From Chitinophaga pinensis (lineage in GTDB: Bacteria > Bacteroidota > Bacteroidia > Chitinophagales > CAMDFR01): a stretch of 64,000 nt of DNA. The notes beneath the pieces are model-generated. The model saw only the letters and a list, made by a program, of their open reading frames with translations, was not told the DNA's origin and searched no databases. A program made the position numbers and the translations under genes. Positions 26,872 through 46,937 of this stretch are shown piece after piece (the first letter of the stretch is position 1; the number at the start of each line of letters is the position of its first letter). The stretch lies in contig CAMART010000002.1 of assembly GCA_945860705.1 (NCBI GenBank), forward strand, positions 124,001-188,000, read 5' to 3'.

Positions 26872-26881
26872 AAGCAATGAA

Positions 26882-27142
26882 CCCAAATTAGGTGATAGGA
26901 TTTGAGTCCCGAAACTTCGGGACGAAAATTCTAGCAAGTTAGTTGGGTTTATCCCGTATTAGTGTTTGTTTCAATAAATTAATATTTATTGAAATACAAA
27001 AACTTTGACGATTCAGCATTTCTAATACCAATCTTATTTTGGTTTAGACCAAAATCTAGAGTGGTATATACCGTTATACATCTGTTCAGAACATTTTATT
27101 GGGCTGTTATAGATTTATAAACGGTATAATGCTGAATTTGGG
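26882..27142 (+). repeat. Dispersed structured repeat, copy A (261 bp, with terminal inverted repeats)
   Basis: The ends are perfect 8-bp inverted repeats, CCCAAATT (26882-26889) and AATTTGGG (27135-27142). Module a (26882-26960) carries a GTCCCGAA-AC-TTCGGGAC palindrome (26906-26923) and is shared with copies B and C. Module b (27028-27126) holds two imperfect hairpins shared with copy B. A perfect TTTCAATAAAT/ATTTATTGAAA hairpin (26969-26995 region) and a TTCAGCATT/AATGCTGAA pair that encloses module b are also present. There is no coding potential. It occupies the gap of 378 bases between the deoxyhypusine synthase and lipoprotein genes. Confidence 0.75.
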
Positions 27143-27168
27143 ATGATAGCAGTTTATAAGCAATAAAA

Positions 27169-27195
27169 AAGCCATCATTTATTCAATGATGGCTT
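27169..27195 (-). terminator. Intrinsic terminator of the small lipoprotein gene
   Basis: An 11-bp perfect stem AAGCCATCATT / AATGATGGCTT (27169-27179 with 27185-27195) with a 5-base loop, 20 bases after the lipoprotein stop, followed on the minus strand by six T residues. Confidence 0.85.
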
Positions 27196-27215
27196 CATAC
27201 GATTTTTTGTTCAGG

Positions 27216-27419: not shown

Positions 27420-27532
27420 TTTTTTCGTTTTTAAAGATTAATAAATAATTATAACACAATATTAATACAAATGTTTTAAAGCACAAATACGTAAATTGGT
27501 TTATTTGTGATAAGTACTAGTACGTATATTAT

Positions 27533-27716
27533 CCCAAATTACGCCTTTCGATTTGAGTCTCAAATCTTTAGGATGAGAATTCTAGCTTGTTTTCAGGTTT
27601 ATCCCGTATTATGCCAATCTTATTTTGGTTTATACCACAATTTAGAGTGGAAAACACCGTTGTTACAGCTGTTCAGACCATTTATTGGTCGGTTATAGAT
27701 GTACAAACGGTATTAT
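27533..27716 (+). repeat. Dispersed structured repeat, copy B
   Basis: It starts with the same CCCAAATT end as copy A. Module a is degenerate: the flanks GATTTGAGTC, GAGAATTCTAGC and GTTTATCCCGTATTA are conserved but the central palindrome is lost. Module b (27614-27712) is well conserved with copy A, and its stems are kept although several bases differ. The right end runs into the stop codon of the acetyltransferase gene (27713-27715) and lacks the AATTTGGG terminus. Same orientation as copy A, so the two copies bracket the lipoprotein gene as direct repeats. Confidence 0.7.
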
Positions 27717-28294
27717 AATTCTAATATATTCTTCATTTCATCTGTTGGGAGCTTAGTGCCTACTCTGTATTCATACATATTCATTCGCAGTTCATTAAAA
27801 AAATAAATAAGAGTCAGCATCATGCCACATTTATCATTTACTTCAAATCCATTGATCACAAAACCAGCTTTTAGTTTAGCTATTATTACTGGATTATTGG
27901 TGGCAGCGTGTTGTGAAGTTATTTTTTGAAATCCTAGTTCTTTAGCTTTTTCAATAGCAAATTTTAATATCTCTTTATAGATACCTTTTCGTCTATGTTC
28001 TGGAAGAATAGCCGTGATCCACATATCAAAATCTTCGCTATTGATGCCTTTGCAAACAAAAGCTCCTACTGTCACTTCTTCTTTTTTAATAAAATAAGCA
28101 AAACAAAGTTGATTAGGAAAGAAAGATTGGAGTTGTTCTTTTTTTTCTTTTTCTATTGTAGTATAATAATTGTCTGGTAAATAAAATACATCATCATCAA
28201 ATAGCAGCGCACCATTTGCATGAATAAAATCAAATACTTCTTTTTCAGGAGTAGCTTCTAAATGGTATCCATTGGTTAAATTTATTTTATTCAT
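27713..28294 (-). CDS. GNAT-family N-acetyltransferase (second of tandem pair)
   Basis: A 193-residue protein starting MNKINLTNGYHLEATPEK. The GNAT core is ITAILPEHRRKGIYKEILKFAIEKAKELG, where RRKGIY is the acetyl-CoA pyrophosphate loop, followed by ATNNPVIIAKLKAGFVINGFE. Its C-terminal half aligns with the preceding gene (GIYK, ATNN-VI--KL-AGF, YFFNE), so the two are tandem duplicates. The chosen ATG at 28294 follows the upstream stop codon by one base (TAA-A-ATG), giving translational coupling; the longer frame would overlap the neighbour by 119 bases. Substrate unknown. Its stop codon lies in the end of repeat copy B. Confidence 0.85.
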   Translation of the reverse strand: MNKINLTNGYHLEATPEKEVFDFIHANGALLFDDDVFYLPDNYYTTIEKEKKEQLQSFFPNQLCFAYFIKKEEVTVGAFVCKGINSEDFDMWITAILPEHRRKGIYKEILKFAIEKAKELGFQKITSQHAATNNPVIIAKLKAGFVINGFEVNDKCGMMLTLIYFFNELRMNMYEYRVGTKLPTDEMKNILEL

Positions 28295-28295
28295 T

Positions 28296-28874
28296 TTATA
28301 ATCCATTGATATATTTTTTAAAATCTTCATTAGGTCGGTATTGCCCTGTCCAGAACTGTAGCGCTTTTCTATTCTTCTCATTAAAGAAATAGGAGAGATG
28401 AGCCAGAATCCCAAACGAAATAGAAATTTCCATTTTGGTGATGTAAAATCCTGCTTGAAGCTTCGGCACTATTACTTTATTATTGGTGGCTTTATGTCTG
28501 CTATATACTTCTTGAAATCCTTTCTCTTGAAGTATATTTAATATCTCAGGCAAAAGTTTTTTATAGATACCTTTATTTTGATGGGCTTTCAATATTCCTG
28601 TATTGCACATATAAAACTTTTGTCTGTTTTCTTGCCATCCAAATGACCAGCCTATTTGTTCATTTTTATAATAGAGACCAATATATAAATAATAAGGCTT
28701 ACCCAAGTTTTGAGCAAGGTCTTTCATTTTTTCTAAATCTAGTTCAGAATAAAAATCTTCATCATTTATGTCTAAGTCATCTGTAAAAACATGATTTCTA
28801 TTTTCTCTAAAGAAAGGAGAAAATTCTTGAACAGTTAAAATTTTATAGGAGTAATAGTCGAAGAGTGCTTTCAT
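28296..28874 (-). CDS. GNAT-family N-acetyltransferase (first of tandem pair)
   Basis: A 192-residue acetyltransferase-like protein. The core is CNTGILKAHQNKGIYKKLLPEILNILQEKG with the cofactor loop HQNKGIYK, then SRHKATNNKVIVPKLQAGFYITKME. The N-terminus (MKALFDYYSYKILTVQEF) differs from its paralogue. Substrate cannot be inferred. The two paralogues form a two-gene operon beginning just after the bidirectional hairpin that ends the large T9SS gene; no TAnnTTTG box is evident upstream, so some readthrough is possible. Confidence 0.83.
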   Translation of the reverse strand: MKALFDYYSYKILTVQEFSPFFRENRNHVFTDDLDINDEDFYSELDLEKMKDLAQNLGKPYYLYIGLYYKNEQIGWSFGWQENRQKFYMCNTGILKAHQNKGIYKKLLPEILNILQEKGFQEVYSRHKATNNKVIVPKLQAGFYITKMEISISFGILAHLSYFFNEKNRKALQFWTGQYRPNEDFKKYINGL

Positions 28875-28953: not shown

Positions 28954-31900
28954 TTATTTATTTACTACAATTGTTTTTTGTGTAAATTCATTGCCTATTT
29001 GTATATAAGCTATATACATACCAGCACTGAGTGATGAAGTATTTAGTGTCATTTTGTTTAAGCCTATAGTTAAGTCATTATTTACTTTCATAACTTCTTG
29101 ACCTAGTGCATCAATCAATCTGATAGTACCACTTGTATTTTTTGTTACCGATACTTCTATTGTAGTATTTTGTAAAGTAGGATTTGGATAAAACTCACCA
29201 ACCGAAGTAGAGCTATTTCTATTTATATAAGCAGATACGATAGAAGATTTTTCAGACTTACCATCATTATCTATTTGATTGAGTCTATAATAATACTCTC
29301 GACCTGCTACTACATTATGATCATCATAAGCATATGCTCGTGATATAGACGAGTTGTTATGTCCATTTACAAATCCGATTTTTTCAAAATTAATACCATC
29401 AGTACTTCTTGTTACTTCAAATCCTTTATTATTAATTTCTGAAGCGGTAGTCCAACTTACTTGAATATATTCATTATTGATAGGTTTTGCTTGTATAGAT
29501 GTATATGTCACTGGCAATGGAGTAGAAGTGTGAGGCGAGATACCTACGCCACCACTTCCACCAGAGAAGCTAGTGATACCATTAAATTCAACATAAGTTA
29601 CACCATTTTCTGTACCAGTTGTTCCTGTAAGGGTAATAAAGTTGAAGTTGAAATTGTTTCCGTCATTAATAAGTCCTGCACTAAAAGGTGCTCCTACAGT
29701 TTTGAACCATTGGAAAGCTACAGGGAAATGTGTTCCTGGGTTTGCAGTATTCAATGCAGTAAGTTTTGCATCTCTTTGTGAAGTAATAGAAGTAATCTCA
29801 GCTGGATCGTAGTAGAAACGTATATTCACTGGATCTACTAAAGTACTAGTACTCACATTCCAAAATCTACTCATTACATAAAAAGCATCAGTTCTAGTTA
29901 CATAAAAGGTTCTTGATTTTTCATCAAATATATTGGAAGCTAGTTTAACTATAGTTACCACAGCGGCATTTTTTGGAGTAGCATTTGTAGTTCCCCATTC
30001 TATAGCAAACAACCATTTATCTGGGTCTGTAGGATCTGCATAGTATGTCCATCCTCCGTTTTCACATTCTACAGGAAGTGTAGAACCATTGGTAGAATTT
30101 GATGCCAATACAACATGTGCCGAACCTGAACGTATAGGCCAAGTAGCTATCACATTAGTAGCTGTAGCATTACATCCTATGCCTGTACCAGCAGTTCTGC
30201 TTACTCTTACTTGTACAGATGTAGCAGCAGCAGTAGTTGTAATATTTGCACCAGAAGTATATGAAGCCCATGAAGAACCTCCATTTGTAGAAAACTCGTA
30301 TACATCACTTGCACCTGTACCACCTGTACCAGCATTGATGGTTACATTCACATTATCGCCTTGACATATTTCTGTACCACTAGCAGGGGTAGCTGTATTG
30401 ATAGTAGGTAAAGTTGGTTGTATAGTCACAGGCCAAGTAGCTACTACTGCAGGACTAGTAGCATTACATCCAGTAGCTGAGCCAGCAGTTCTGCTTACAC
30501 GCACTTGTACAGATGTAGTAGCCGATGCAGTACTAATTGGATCACTAGGTGAATAAGCAGACCAAGAAGATCCTCCATTAGTAGAAAACTCATATACATC
30601 GCTTGCTCCTGTTCCTCCAGAACCAGCGTTAATCGTAGCACTTACGTTTTGTCCTTGACAGATAGTACCAACAGAAGGAGTAGCTATATTTAAAGTTGGA
30701 GCGATAGGTTGAATAGTCACAGGCCAAGTAGCAATTATATTAGTGCTCGTAGCATTACATCCCGTACCTGTTCCAGCAGTTCTGCTCACTCTTATTTGTA
30801 CAGAAGTAGTAGCTGATGCTGTAGTAATAGTAGCACCAGAAGTATAAGCCGACCATGAAGAACCACCATTAGTAGAAAACTCATATACATCGCTCGCACC
30901 AGTACCACCAGTACCAGCTGTAATCGTAGCACTTACATCTTGTCCTTGACAGATGGTTGTACCAGATGTTGGAGTAGCTACATTTAAAGTTGGAGCTATT
31001 GGTTGTATAGTTACAGGCCAAGTAGCAATTACATTAGGACCAGCAATATTACATCCAGTACCAGTACCTGCAGTTCTGCTTACTCTTATTTGTACAGAAG
31101 TAGTTGCAGATGCTGTAGTAATAGCAGTACCAGAAGTATAAGCTGCCCATGAAGAACCACCATTAGTAGAAAAGTCATATACATCGCTCGCACCTGTTCC
31201 ACCTGAACCAGCGGTGATTGTAGCACTCACGTTTTGTCCTTGGCAGATAGCCGTACCACTTACTAAACTTGGAGTATTGAGTGTTGGTGCAACAATCTGA
31301 GGAGTTACAGTCCATGAAAATACATTGGTAGGTGAATTATTACATCCTGATCCACTGCATTCTTTTCTCAATTCTATGGTATTTGTACCTACTACAGCAG
31401 CAAAACTAGGTAATGTAGTACTCCATGCACTAAATCCGCTTCCATTATCAAATCTATACATAAGATTGCAGGTACCAGTTCCACCACCAGCATCTGTTGC
31501 TCCACTTACTGTTAGGGTTTGTCCAGCGCATACATTTGCATTATTAGGTGATTTTGTAGCTGTAGGCATTATAGGGTCTAATACTACTATTGCAGTTGCA
31601 TTACCTGAAGTGGCAGTATTACAATCTGTACCAGATGCAGATACTAAACATCTATAAAGGTATGTGTCTGCAGGTGTAGTTACATTTGTAGTTGACGCGG
31701 TCATGCTGTTTGAAGTAGCTCCCGCATAAGTAATGCCTGCAGGAGTTCCATCTACCACATTATTCCATGTACCACTATTATATTGCCACTGATAGGTAAG
31801 TGACGGAGTACCTCCTGAAGCACTTACACTTACTGTAAAATTAGAACCTTGACAAACAGGGTTTGGTGGCGAAGTAACACTAGAAATAGAAGGATCTGCA

Positions 31901-33174
31901 ACTACATTTACTTGAATGATATTGCTATAAGCTACGGTACCACATGCATCTGTTATTTTTCTTCTGAAAAAATAAGTGCCTACTGCTAATGTCGCATCAG
32001 GGTCGAAAGTTGTTGAGTTTATTCCTACATTGGTGATAGTAGCAAAAGTATTTGTAGGTGCTCGTTCCCATTGATAAGTGGAACTTCCATATGCATACGC
32101 ACCCACAGTTAATGCCCCAGTAGCATCTGCTGTACTTGTAAATGCTCCAGGATCATCGCCTACACAGATAGAAGTAGGATTTGTTATGCCTGCTATTGTG
32201 CCTCCATTGATAGCAGCTAAATTATTAGCAACAACACTTAAGTTGAAATCACCAGTATTAGTGTTAAATCCTTCTACTACTATGACATATGTACCTGCAC
32301 AAAGTGCTCTTGTTATTGCAGATGTAGTGCCTAATCCACCTCCATCATCATCAAATGCAATCTCTGTTCCACATCCTGAGTTGTATAATCTTAAATACGA
32401 ATCATAGTTTGTACCTGCATTATTAGTGCCGATGGTTACAACTTGAGGAGAAGAAATGGTAAATTGATAAAATACATCTGGAGAGCCATTGCCCAATACG
32501 TTTGTATATCCTTTATCAGATGAAGCACCGCCTGGCGCACCTCTATTAGTATTGATATGACTTTTAGCAGTACCTGTTGTGAGTGTACCAAAATTTAATG
32601 CAGAAGCGCATGAATTTCCATTTGTATATCTCCATACAGATTTCATATACAATATGCTATTACCGATTGACCAACCATCTTCAACACCTGCTGCTCCAGC
32701 AAATCCCCACCAACTACAGGCAGTTTTTGTAACGCTTTTAAATGTGTAATTAGTGGCATCATTGGCTGTACAAGCATCACCAGAAGAACTACAATCTGGC
32801 GCACCATCTTCTTCCCATGACTCTTTTTGTATATTAAAAAAATCAGCATTATTAGTTCTATTAGTACAATTATACATTAAAACACTATGAACAGTAGTAG
32901 AAGGAGCATCAGCTTGCCACCTACGTACATAATTATTTCCTCCACAAGAAGCGCCAGATCCTCCACTAGTCCATGTTGCAGTTCCACCTGTATTTCCATC
33001 TGAGTTTAGCCCAATACGTACTTCATTATCATCGGCAGAAAATGCGTCATTATCACATGTTTGTCTCCATTGTTCTACACGCATTTCATAGTTGACATTA
33101 CCGTTGGATATTTGTGCATTTATATTTGCATTTATAGCAAATAGGAGTGTTAAAGCTATTAAGTAAGATTTCAT
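28954..33174 (-). CDS. Giant repetitive T9SS-exported surface protein
   Basis: A 1406-residue secreted protein. The signal peptide is MKSYLIALTLLFAINANINAQ. A unique N-terminal domain (about 25-190) rich in Asn, Trp and Cys is followed by a pre-peptidase-like beta domain (PQVVTIGTNNAGTNYDSYLRLYN), Ig-like modules, then four nearly identical modules of about 98 residues, each with ICQGQ-VSATI-AG, GASDVYEFSTNGGSSW and VSRTAG-GCN. A further domain, a FnIII-like module and a type A T9SS sorting domain (VGEFYPNPTLQNTTIEV, ending FTQKTIVVNK) complete it. It is probably an adhesin or matrix protein (inference). The start at 33174 is chosen because the longer form would bury the signal peptide and overlap the upstream gene. 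Confidence 0.88.
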   Translation of the reverse strand: MKSYLIALTLLFAINANINAQISNGNVNYEMRVEQWRQTCDNDAFSADDNEVRIGLNSDGNTGGTATWTSGGSGASCGGNNYVRRWQADAPSTTVHSVLMYNCTNRTNNADFFNIQKESWEEDGAPDCSSSGDACTANDATNYTFKSVTKTACSWWGFAGAAGVEDGWSIGNSILYMKSVWRYTNGNSCASALNFGTLTTGTAKSHINTNRGAPGGASSDKGYTNVLGNGSPDVFYQFTISSPQVVTIGTNNAGTNYDSYLRLYNSGCGTEIAFDDDGGGLGTTSAITRALCAGTYVIVVEGFNTNTGDFNLSVVANNLAAINGGTIAGITNPTSICVGDDPGAFTSTADATGALTVGAYAYGSSTYQWERAPTNTFATITNVGINSTTFDPDATLAVGTYFFRRKITDACGTVAYSNIIQVNVVADPSISSVTSPPNPVCQGSNFTVSVSASGGTPSLTYQWQYNSGTWNNVVDGTPAGITYAGATSNSMTASTTNVTTPADTYLYRCLVSASGTDCNTATSGNATAIVVLDPIMPTATKSPNNANVCAGQTLTVSGATDAGGGTGTCNLMYRFDNGSGFSAWSTTLPSFAAVVGTNTIELRKECSGSGCNNSPTNVFSWTVTPQIVAPTLNTPSLVSGTAICQGQNVSATITAGSGGTGASDVYDFSTNGGSSWAAYTSGTAITTASATTSVQIRVSRTAGTGTGCNIAGPNVIATWPVTIQPIAPTLNVATPTSGTTICQGQDVSATITAGTGGTGASDVYEFSTNGGSSWSAYTSGATITTASATTSVQIRVSRTAGTGTGCNATSTNIIATWPVTIQPIAPTLNIATPSVGTICQGQNVSATINAGSGGTGASDVYEFSTNGGSSWSAYSPSDPISTASATTSVQVRVSRTAGSATGCNATSPAVVATWPVTIQPTLPTINTATPASGTEICQGDNVNVTINAGTGGTGASDVYEFSTNGGSSWASYTSGANITTTAAATSVQVRVSRTAGTGIGCNATATNVIATWPIRSGSAHVVLASNSTNGSTLPVECENGGWTYYADPTDPDKWLFAIEWGTTNATPKNAAVVTIVKLASNIFDEKSRTFYVTRTDAFYVMSRFWNVSTSTLVDPVNIRFYYDPAEITSITSQRDAKLTALNTANPGTHFPVAFQWFKTVGAPFSAGLINDGNNFNFNFITLTGTTGTENGVTYVEFNGITSFSGGSGGVGISPHTSTPLPVTYTSIQAKPINNEYIQVSWTTASEINNKGFEVTRSTDGINFEKIGFVNGHNNSSISRAYAYDDHNVVAGREYYYRLNQIDNDGKSEKSSIVSAYINRNSSTSVGEFYPNPTLQNTTIEVSVTKNTSGTIRLIDALGQEVMKVNNDLTIGLNKMTLNTSSLSAGMYIAYIQIGNEFTQKTIVVNK
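30100..31290 (-). repeat. Four in-frame tandem repeats of about 294 bp inside the giant T9SS gene
   Basis: The same GCAGTTCTGC anchor recurs near 30191, 30485, 30776 and 31070, a spacing of 291-294 bases, i.e. 97-98 codons. The copies are highly alike at DNA level as well as protein level, so recent duplication or gene conversion is likely. These are coding repeats, not a CRISPR array. Confidence 0.9.
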
Positions 33175-33190
33175 TTCAAGCAAGTTTAAT

Positions 33191-34441
33191 TTAATAGTTG
33201 ATAAAATTATTTTTTTTATAAAAGTAATATGGCTCATTTGCTATATTAACGTTTGGTTTAATTAATGCTCTAGCTTTATGTTGGTTAAGTGTAATATTTG
33301 ATAAACAATATACGAAAACTTTTTCAGTTTTATATTTTTTTTGTGCATCTTTTTTTAATTTTTGTGCTAATTGCCATATAAAGTAAGAATCATTGTATGT
33401 ATTCATTAGTTGTCTATAAGTGATTAACTGACTAAAATCTACAAAATACTTGTCTTTTAAATCGGGTAATTCTACTAAAAATTGAAAATATTCAGGTTCG
33501 TGATTATGTAGCATCATTCTCCATGCAAAGTAGTGGCCTTGTCTGTGCCATGCCAATCCGTCTAGCATAAATAAAAACCTCAAAGGAAATAACATTTGTA
33601 CAATAAAAAATAAAATTAAGATATATCGATTTATTTTATTTTGAAATATTATACCAAAATCTTTAAAAATAGATTTTATATTGTATTTATATATAGTTAA
33701 ATAAATTGCCCAAGCGACTATCATCACAAGTGGGAACTCACCAATATTGAATATAAAATAGTTTGATAAATGAAATGTAAAATATGGAATAACTACGAAT
33801 ATAGATTTGGGTTTATACCATAAAATAAAGGGGATTAATAAATCAAAAAACAATCCAAAATAGCTCATAAATATACCTAATATATCAGGGAAAGGATACG
33901 CTCTATTTGTAGTAAGCAAACGCATTGGATATCCTTGTAGCCAATCTGAATTTATTTTTGCGATACCACCATAGAAATATACAATAGAAAATAGTAAGCC
34001 AAAAACAAGATAGTTGCCTATACTAATAGTTTTGTTTGTGTTTTTTTTGATTAAGTCGATTATGGATATTGATTTATTAGTATCAATAATTATATATAAA
34101 AAAGATATTAAACACCATAAATAATAATGGTTATTATAAAAGGACATATCTATCAAAAACAAATAACCAAAAGATATGAAAAAAAGGAATGCACCAATTT
34201 TTGGGAATACACCACTTGCTAATAAAATCGCTCCAAATGCTGCTAAATAAGTTAATGTATAAATCAACTCATGAGAGTATGCTTCTATAAAAGCAAGATT
34301 GGGATAGTGAAATACAAAAGTAGATTCAGAAAGATCATGAACATGAGGTGCTAAATTAAAAACTTGAGGAAGCATTAATAAACCAAAAAAGCATCTAAAT
34401 ATTGAGAAGTTTATTGCAGATACTTCAATACTTTGTTTCAA
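33191..34441 (-). CDS. HTTM-domain (vitamin K-dependent gamma-carboxylase-like) membrane protein
   Basis: A 416-residue polytopic inner-membrane protein with about nine hydrophobic helices. Features matching the HTTM/VKGC family are the early SIFRCFFGLLMLPQV helix, SFYNNHYYLWCLISFLYI, and YFYGGIAKINSDWLQGYPM, the signature segment before WL. A soluble C-terminal tail (about 340-416) follows. Catalytic function in bacteria is unclear; human VKGC carboxylates glutamate. It is sandwiched in an apparent operon: 18 bases after a small exported protein and 16 bases before the giant T9SS gene. Confidence 0.8.
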   Translation of the reverse strand: MKQSIEVSAINFSIFRCFFGLLMLPQVFNLAPHVHDLSESTFVFHYPNLAFIEAYSHELIYTLTYLAAFGAILLASGVFPKIGAFLFFISFGYLFLIDMSFYNNHYYLWCLISFLYIIIDTNKSISIIDLIKKNTNKTISIGNYLVFGLLFSIVYFYGGIAKINSDWLQGYPMRLLTTNRAYPFPDILGIFMSYFGLFFDLLIPFILWYKPKSIFVVIPYFTFHLSNYFIFNIGEFPLVMIVAWAIYLTIYKYNIKSIFKDFGIIFQNKINRYILILFFIVQMLFPLRFLFMLDGLAWHRQGHYFAWRMMLHNHEPEYFQFLVELPDLKDKYFVDFSQLITYRQLMNTYNDSYFIWQLAQKLKKDAQKKYKTEKVFVYCLSNITLNQHKARALIKPNVNIANEPYYFYKKNNFINY

Positions 34442-35015: not shown

Positions 35016-35219
35016 GCTTAGTTGGGGGGTGGTTAGTAGTTCGGCTTTGGTTGAGCGAGTCGGCAGGTAGGCTTCGTGGGAGGAAACTAAGTCAAAGTTG
35101 TATGCGAGTCGGCTAGAAACTTTGACTTAGTTAGGCTTCGGCTAGGCTAATCGGCTAGAAACTTCGACTTAGTTATATGCTTCGGCTAGGCAAGTCGGTC
35201 TTGCAGGTCGGTAAGGTTT
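35016..35219. repeat. Upstream REP-like palindromic array next to the RAYT gene
   Basis: A GC-richer block within AT-rich DNA. It has arm AACTAAGTCAAAGTT (35085-35099), its exact reverse complement AACTTTGACTTAGTT (35118-35132), and a third arm with one change (35160-35174). The arms alternate with GTCGGCTAGAA and GGCTTCGGCTAGGC cores. Units repeat in tandem with a period of about 42 bases. It fills much of the 407-base gap between the small exported protein and the transposase gene; the part left of 35016 is AT-rich and featureless. Confidence 0.85.
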
Positions 35220-35256: not shown

Positions 35257-35868
35257 ATGGATATACGTAACGAAAAGATAGAATCTGAATGTTTTTATCA
35301 CATTTATAATAGAGGAATAAATGGATGTCTTATTTTCAAAAATGAAGAAAACTATTCTTTTTTTCTTAAAAAATTTGAATTGTATTTAGATAAGTATTGT
35401 GATATATATTCTTATTGTCTCATGCCCAATCATTTTCATTTTTTGATAAAAGCAAAATCGGAGGACGAACTTAAAAAACTAATATTAAGCAATAATAACT
35501 TAAAGTCAATATCCAATATGGGATTGCATTCTCCTATAAATATTGTAAGTAAACAATTAGGAAAATTTATAAGTAGTTATAGCCAAGCATATAATAAAGT
35601 GCATAAAAGACATGGTCCACTTTTGGAGTCACCTTTCAAAAGAATAAAAGTAGACACACTTGATTATTTAAAAAATTTGATTTTATATATCCATTTAAAT
35701 CCTGTAGATATAGGAATTGATTATGACATATATAAGTTTTCGTCATATAATTCTGTCGTTTCAAAAAACAAGACTAAAATAAAAAGAGAAGAGATATTAG
35801 AATTATTTGATAATGAAGAAAATTTTATGAATTGTCATAGGATATACCACCAAAAAAATAGAAAATAA
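35257..35868 (+). CDS. REP-associated tyrosine transposase (RAYT, Y1 HUH family)
   Basis: A 203-residue single-strand DNA transposase of the IS200/IS605-related TnpA-REP group. The HUH metal-binding motif is H59-F60-H61 in LMPNHFHFLIKAK. The N-terminus (CFYHIYNRGINGCLIF) is typical of RAYTs. The nucleophile is a tyrosine in the helix SSYSQAYNKVHKRHG (Y108 or Y112), followed by PLLESPFKRIKVD and LILYIHLNPV, the family signature. There is no tnpB and no classical IS ends; instead the gene is flanked by palindromic arrays, the standard REPtron arrangement. The frame is intact, so it may be active. Confidence 0.92.
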   Translation: MDIRNEKIESECFYHIYNRGINGCLIFKNEENYSFFLKKFELYLDKYCDIYSYCLMPNHFHFLIKAKSEDELKKLILSNNNLKSISNMGLHSPINIVSKQLGKFISSYSQAYNKVHKRHGPLLESPFKRIKVDTLDYLKNLILYIHLNPVDIGIDYDIYKFSSYNSVVSKNKTKIKREEILELFDNEENFMNCHRIYHQKNRK

Positions 35869-35901
35869 ACTTTAAATAAATTAAAAACATTTAAGTTTTA
35901 A

Positions 35902-36037
35902 GCGATTCGGCAGGTAGGCTTCGTAGGAAACTAAGTCGAAGTTGTCTGCGAATCGGCTAGAAACTTTGACTTAGTTAGGCTTCGGCTGAGCAATTAGATT
36001 AGTCGGCATCGGCTAGACGAGTCGGGTAGTAAGTAAC
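35902..36037. repeat. Downstream REP-like palindromic array next to the RAYT gene
   Basis: It repeats the upstream block almost exactly in the same order: CGGCAGGTAGGCTTCGT, arm AACTAAGTCGAAGTT (35929-35943), ATCGGCTAGAA, arm AACTTTGACTTAGTT (35962-35976), AGGCTTCGGCT. A degenerate tail with CGGCATCGGCTAGACGAGTCGG follows. With the upstream copy it forms a direct repeat of about 85 bases bracketing the transposase gene. Confidence 0.85.
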
Positions 36038-46511: not shown

Positions 46512-46667
46512 CCCAATTCAGCATTAAAAAATGCTAAACGATTAAGAAGTTATAAATCACTATTTTTCAAATATTGATAACAACTTCTAAATCGGGGTAA
46601 ACTCAACTAACACGCTAGAATTCTCGTCCCGAAGTTTCGGGACTCAAATCCTATCGCGTAATTTGAG
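46512..46667 (-). repeat. Dispersed structured repeat, copy C (inverted, without module b)
   Basis: Read on the minus strand, 46667 to about 46592 matches module a of copy A over nearly 80 bases, including the perfect GTCCCGAA/TTCGGGAC palindrome (46626-46643). A different hairpin follows (AGAAGTTGTTATCA / TGATTTATAACTTCT). The end has the AGCATT...AATGCTGAATTGGG pair that also ends copy A, but with only a short loop where copy A has module b. It lies between the two-component operon terminator and the Lys-rich small protein gene, reaching within a few bases of the stop codon of the latter. Confidence 0.75.
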
Positions 46668-46673
46668 TTAAAA

Positions 46674-46937
46674 TTATTTTTTAGATTTTTCTATTGGTTT
46701 ATTAGCAACTTTATTTTGAGCAGCTTTTTTTGTGTTTGCTTTTTTTGCTACTGGCTTAATGATTGGAGTTTTTACAGCAACTATTTTTTTAAGCGTTTCT
46801 TTCTTTTTTTCTTTCTCTAGTTTAGCTGTTTCTTTTTCTTTCTTTTTCAGCTTCTTTTTGATTTCATTCCATTCGTCTATCAGCACAATTACACCTAATT
46901 TTTTACCTTTATTGTCGTAGATAAATTGCTTTTTCAT
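46674..46937 (-). CDS. Small lysine-rich protein with antitoxin-like N-terminus
   Basis: An 87-residue protein. The first 30 residues (YDNKGKKLGVIVLIDEWNEIKKKL) look like the small beta-strand plus helix segment at the start of many Bacteroidota antitoxin-like or prevent-host-death-like proteins. The rest is a Lys/Ala/Glu-rich low-complexity tail (about 45% Lys in stretches), which could bind nucleic acid or be disordered. No toxin gene is adjacent, so an antitoxin role is speculative. It ends just beside repeat copy C. Confidence 0.6.
   Translation of the reverse strand: MKKQFIYDNKGKKLGVIVLIDEWNEIKKKLKKKEKETAKLEKEKKKETLKKIVAVKTPIIKPVAKKANTKKAAQNKVANKPIEKSKK

Follow-up and report, generated by a model that had tools for sequence, protein, structure and literature searches.

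A two-hairpin repeat nested in a second structured repeat of Chitinophaga pinensis: probable non-autonomous transposable elements

Module b, a repeat of about 100-135 bases in which two hairpins stand side by side, is probably a non-autonomous transposable element that inserts at TWA with a 3-base duplication, and its copy A probably entered a second structured family at its terminal hairpin loop. This second family, the outer repeat, is unrelated to module b. The reading as two non-autonomous element families is drawn from their ends, their target-site duplications, their dispersal, the recent amplification in several genomes, the nesting and the compensatory base pairs. The window referred to below is the whole stretch of DNA that was analyzed, 64,000 nucleotides of a Chitinophaga pinensis contig.

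Module b and the outer repeat in the window

The features of both elements are listed in Table 1. In copy A, an insert of about 103 bases separates TTCAGCATT from AATGCTGAA (27012-27136), and the uninterrupted copy C has AGCATTTTTTAATGCT as its terminal end; the earlier note had thus correctly described a simple terminal hairpin in copy C and module b enclosed by its two halves in copy A. Its proposal that one element is nested in the other is borne out by the target-site duplications, since each element has its own, ATGA for the outer element and TAA for module b. We conclude from these duplications that the outer element landed first and module b second. In the MFE fold of copy A, the outer arms stay paired, with both module b hairpins inside. 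Copies A and B of module b match at 84%, and the fold z-scores (-3.7 for the left hairpin, hp1, and -5.6 for the right hairpin, hp2, of copy A; -2.2 and -4.3, respectively, for those of copy B) indicate that pairing exceeds chance in both. The stems are not preserved at every pair: some A/B differences in the left hairpin disrupt a pair, with no compensating change. The inner hairpin GACCA/TGGTC is indeed perfect in copy B only.

Just downstream of copy A, at 27168-27199, lies a perfect hairpin (GCCATCATT/AATGATGGC) beside an A-run, which has a terminator-like look.

Table 1. Positions of module b, the outer repeat and their parts in the window
Feature	Position	Strand	Basis
Outer element copy A, left 4-base duplication ATGA	26877..26880		
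Outer element copy A ([A]CCCAAATT ... TTTGGG), split by module b	26881..27142	+	
Outer element copy A, right duplication ATGA	27143..27146		
Outer copy A terminal hairpin, 5' arm TTCAGCATT	27012..27020	+	sequence, pairing
Outer copy A terminal hairpin, 3' arm AATGCTGAA	27128..27136	+	sequence, pairing
Module b copy A, left 3-base duplication TAA	27023..27025		
Module b copy A, TACC ... GGTA	27026..27126	+	
Module b copy A, left hairpin hp1	27026..27066	+	folding
Module b copy A, right hairpin hp2, conserved, covarying	27069..27126	+	folding, covariation
Module b copy A, right 3-base duplication TAA	27127..27129		
Outer element copy B, left half only, right half missing	27532..27611	+	
Module b copy B, left 3-base duplication TTA	27609..27611		
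Module b copy B, at outer linker CCCGTA^TTA	27612..27712	+	
Module b copy B, right duplication TTA = stop codon (TAA) of minus-strand gene 27713-28414	27713..27715		
Outer element copy C, without module b	46512..46683	-	

Ends and target-site duplications

The ends of module b are precise, TWA-[TACC...GGTA]-TWA, and its layout is TACC-hp1-GGTA-(TWA or TA)-TRCC-hp2-GGTA. The terminal repeat is perfect over TACC/GGTA (about 4 bases) and imperfect over a further 25-30 or so bases, as read by eye. Both ends could be placed in 69 copies, those with no recognizable left end being excluded, and 67 copies remained after removal of identical flanks. Of these 67 unique copies, 56 have identical 3-base flanks; the shuffles averaged 35.8 and peaked at 48, and none of 10,000 reached the observed count. 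The duplicated triplet is TTA in 42 copies, TAA in 13 and TTC in one. Genomes that were searched later and had not been used before gave identical flanks in 14 of 18 copies; one of the 19 copies of this set has no left end and was not counted. The flanking sequence varies among module b copies. Module b has also inserted into itself, once in the loop of hp2 (genome G041, L230) and once in one of the hp2 arms (G026, L107), and each of these insertions is flanked by TTA at either end. Like a MITE, module b is short (about 101-135 bases), dispersed, without a transposase gene and accompanied by a target-site duplication.

Three module b copies of G026 (L175, L176 and L178) have common flanking sequence with TTC on both sides; thus, module b was copied there along with a larger repeated segment. 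In G266, tandem right-hairpin units (L157, L160, L163 and L164) are spaced by 77 bases, with TAA or TTA after each unit, which indicates that the right hairpin can be multiplied independently of the left.

The outer family has the terminal ends CCCAAAT/ATTTGGG. Its 4-base flanks are identical in 29 of 35 cases (shuffled mean 7.3, 0 of 5000 shuffles as high), with two offsets allowed in the count and likewise in the shuffles. The left duplications seen, TTTA, ATAA, ATTA, TTAA, GTTA, ATGA and TTCA, are WTWA-like. About 22 places of about 160 bases each belong to this family in the window's genome, and it is present in 4 of 30 relatives, the own genome included. The pattern of its terminal hairpin was found in 23 stretches of named MAGs, mostly Bacteroidia/Bacteroidota.

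At about 26907-26924 and in other outer copies, we observed a 14-base palindromic insert, TCCCGAAACTTCGG, which is absent from yet other copies. Similar CCCG...CGGG palindromes occur in loops and junctions of both families (G006, G026, G038, G041 and G266). Palindromes of the TCCCGAAACTTCGG type are possibly a third, very small mobile palindrome.

Distribution and nesting

In the window's genome (G000), a DNA search revealed six module b places and two weak partial matches. The right-hairpin model R2 gave seven matches, and both searches combined yielded seven module b copies. R2 matched 22 of 395 genomes of the class, the own genome included, and 19 of 197 genera. R1 matched 13 of 396 genomes of the order, 12 of them credibly; the match L104 in G253, an AT-rich terminator-like hairpin, is probably false and was excluded from later alignments. 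A 36-base match in G058, inside or near a coding stretch, was judged to be due to chance. Ten genomes scanned with R2 had 4 to 92 matches each (92 in G266, 31 in G288 and 10 in G006), counts that include some opposite-strand shadows of one copy or tandem units. Dozens of near-identical module b copies occupy different sites in G266, G026, G038 and G041, which suggests that the system was active recently. Viral contigs gave no match to two module b patterns and one outer pattern, nor did plasmids and phages to one G041 module b copy used as query.

Four of the seven copies in the window's genome lie within outer elements, all in the orientation of their host element. Copy A interrupts the terminal hairpin at its loop, and the linker that joins the first and second outer hairpins contains, near CCCGTATTAG, copy B, L003 and L004. 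The other three, L002, the truncated L006 and C35 (flanked by TAA/TAA), are outside outer repeats. The terminal hairpin, which the earlier note had taken for the seat of module b, thus applies to copy A and not to copy B; copies at unrelated positions, which that note had named as evidence against its view, do exist. As module b occurs elsewhere in the outer repeat and outside it, the terminal hairpin was a place of insertion and does not form a joint structure with module b.

The outer family makes up about 0.1% of 2.94 Mb, so that four nested copies out of seven far exceed what random insertion would give. This enrichment may in part come from descent or from a taste for AT-rich intergenic DNA. 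It could well be, though we lean against it, that the three linker copies represent one old insertion that multiplied as a composite, in which case a targeting of outer elements by module b would be unsupported. Copy B and L004 have the same target position and the same orientation, as such a composite would, but L003 lies about 2 bases upstream with different junctions, and copy A sits at another place. A preference of module b for unpaired outer sites is not supported: the folds of seven outer copies leave 43 of their 69 TWA sites mostly unpaired anyway, and finding four of four is unsurprising.

Covariation and the folded strand

Covariation was judged against shuffles and against slid controls, in which the pairing partner was shifted by 1-3 columns. 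The hp2 alignment comprised 31 copies, obtained from 38 rows by dropping the truncated L006 and six rows that were spurious or came from the opposite strand. In this alignment, 91.3% of the cells were paired, and 15 of 23 pairs had changes on both sides. On every measure, 0 or 1 of 500 shuffles were as high, and pairing in the slid controls was 26-42% of cells. The later set from other genera (19 of 28 rows, nine opposite-strand shadows being left out) had 386 of 435 cells paired and changes on both sides in 13 of 23 pairs, values that lean towards the model because the copies were found by it. For the right half of the outer element, 27 of 31 copies were aligned, the four cut short by the search pattern being left out; 542 of 564 cells were paired, with changes on both sides in 10 of 21 pairs. 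The covariation test that the earlier note had suggested is thus positive for the right hairpin of module b and for the outer repeat. The six module b copies of the window's genome showed thin covariation (3 of 39 pairs), with a number of pair types not above that of shuffles; with so weak a signal, the earlier note could not have settled the question of structure. The left hairpin changes in sequence between lineages. It folds well in copies of G000, G026, G266 and G006, but in G041 its fold does not surpass that of shuffled sequences (z +0.8), and in one G288 copy it is weak (z -1.1).

G-T mismatches outnumbered A-C mismatches in the 31 hp2 copies (41:10), in the later hp2 copies (29:12) and in the outer right half (17:4). 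The cells behind these counts are not independent, and a single column accounts for 15 of the 41 G-T cells and for 17 of the 29. Much of the excess comes from a G-T pair close to the hp2 foot, which is present in 15 of 31 rows and in 17 of 19 new rows. The earlier note had proposed selection on an RNA or cruciform structure; among folded RNA, folded single-stranded DNA and a symmetric cruciform, the predominance of G-T over A-C favors one folded strand.

The correction of quasi-palindromes is a known process, and mutational repair of imperfect palindromes by template switching, with one arm copied to the other, might produce covariation without structural selection. The palindromic inserts in loops and junctions of both families would suit this explanation. 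We nevertheless consider it unlikely, as unpaired and G-T positions are conserved across genera of the class; correction would remove a G-T pair such as that at the hp2 foot, which persists in nearly all new copies.

Candidate mobilizing enzymes

Searches with PF01609, PF13586, PF13701 and PF01797 in 8-9 genomes revealed, among the loci examined, no transposase gene with module b ends. PF01609 had no match in G000, G006 and G348, PF13586 matched one of eight genomes (not G000), and PF13701 matched one of nine. The PF01609 and Y1 loci examined had no TACC/GGTA ends in TWA; in this check, L191 was read by eye (as L250), and L190, L216, L259 and L260 were left out. Y1 and DDE loci were therefore rejected as parent elements among the loci examined. 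The IS1031 group of the IS5 family produces 3-base TNA duplications, and those of module b are alike in length and type. An origin of module b as an IS1031/IS5-derived MITE is, however, at odds with the distribution of IS5-type transposases, PF13586 being absent from seven and PF01609 from three of the eight genomes.

Module b and the outer element might alternatively be "atypical secondary structures" of the REP/RAYT type, processed as folded single-stranded DNA by a Y1 (HUH) transposase of the Bacteroidetes class. Y1_Tnp (PF01797) genes are present in six of eight genomes, with six genes in the window's genome, and the one-strand G-T bias is compatible with folded single-stranded DNA. Moreover, in G266 (L210) only about 5 bases separate module b from the likely ATG of the RAYT-like gene that follows it, and in G038 (L220) an outer element immediately precedes another such gene. 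These are, however, the 2 of 16 RAYT-like loci with module b (R2 scan) or the outer element (blastn) beside them, and at least nine of the 16, the window locus included, have repeated units of their own on the flanks of the gene. No Y1 match was found in G006 and G288, both of which have R2 matches. Furthermore, module b and the outer element duplicate target bases; we know of no such duplication in Y1 transposition, and to our knowledge the REP elements of RAYTs have no target-site duplication. Taken with these differences, the REP/RAYT explanation appears improbable.

The RAYT-like (Y1_Tnp) gene of the window (35257-35868, plus strand) encodes 203 aa and has repeats at 35051-35175 and 35898-36002. 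These are its own, G+C-richer hairpins (GAAACTTTGACTTAGTTAGG...), a separate REP-like system.

Genomic context and possible mechanism

Neighbors on both sides were available for 49 of the 51 module b copies listed. None of the 49 lies inside a long ORF, and relative to tandem neighbor genes 14 copies are sense and 16 antisense. This even orientation makes a role in host mRNA unlikely and led us to discard a host mRNA element as the main reading. That the repeats derive from a host regulatory or terminator RNA, whose fold is kept for its effect on neighboring transcripts, is very improbable: the strong compensatory changes, the one-strand G-T bias and the location of module b between genes would fit, but copies with even orientation and differing flanks that arose by insertion with target duplications would not. 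Rfam had no matches above the gathering score in the window and none at the elements in 15 loci, and a permissive scan gave sub-threshold matches only.

We infer that selection on the fold acts in the element's own movement. As a non-autonomous transposable element, module b would be recognized at its TACC/GGTA ends by an enzyme supplied in trans, which would make staggered cuts, 3 bases apart, in the target DNA. The moving form would require one strand, the written one, to be folded, either as single-stranded DNA or as a structured transcript of the element. A bolder version, which we regard as unlikely, is that two class-wide Bacteroidota families combine a fixed, DDE-type-like duplication with a folded single-strand substrate and are moved in trans by an enzyme outside the searched families, the G-T pair at the hp2 foot marking an internal end. 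If so, this pair at the internal foot (TGCC, not TACC) would keep hp2 from being cut out alone.

Relation to described repeats

Bacterial MITEs such as Correia/NEMIS, ERIC, RUP and others are described in passages of PMC2229807 and PMC10969869 as elements of about 100-200 bp that are AT-rich, mostly intergenic and contain stem-loops. Compared with these descriptions, module b is alike in size, AT-richness, intergenic place, stem-loops, target duplications, dispersal and the lack of a transposase gene. It differs in its short perfect terminal repeat, in having two separate covarying hairpins instead of one 5'-3' stem, and in its occurrence in genomes of a whole class, with no parent insertion sequence found. 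The CIR elements of Caulobacter and Brucella consist of two long inverted repeats that form two linker-joined arms of conserved structure (CIR passage of PMC2229807). They are a precedent for the two-armed architecture, but belong to another phylum and are described with a GANTC motif; the TWA target and the nesting of module b are unreported in that passage.

IS elements of Porphyromonas gingivalis may nest into other mobile elements, and BrickBuilt and other MITEs of this species resemble module b as MITEs of Bacteroidota (PMC4596501). These MITEs differ by IS5-like terminal repeats, internal 23-nt tandem repeats and variable duplications. A precedent for nesting is provided by REP dimers inserted in palindromes (PMC3733652, section 7), and a Bacteroidetes subclass of RAYTs is flanked by "atypical secondary structures" (passage in PMC6006769). 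As far as these sections go, REP/RAYT systems share with module b and the outer element the hairpin repeats, at times inside other palindromes, and the structured single strand; the target duplication and the presence of module b or the outer element beside only 2 of 16 RAYT-like genes set our families apart.

The literature passages covered on MITEs, palindromes, REP/RAYT and structured repeats in Bacteroidetes/Bacteroidota contain no description of either family. The best reading of module b and the outer repeat is that each represents a new family of non-autonomous transposable elements with a conserved structure. The case for a bacterial MITE commonly rests on one hairpin and a few copies, whereas compensatory changes are seen here across many genomes of the class. 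As fold support and target duplications come from the same copies, it can be asked whether a transposase reads a folded strand yet leaves a duplication, and which enzyme does so. The recent-looking amplification makes the system testable, and the models R1 and R2 would enable the annotation of elements that have no Rfam family.

Elsewhere in the window, four direct repeats of about 294 bases (30136-31314) lie within an ORF of 1427 aa (28954-33237), as a repeated domain of a large protein.
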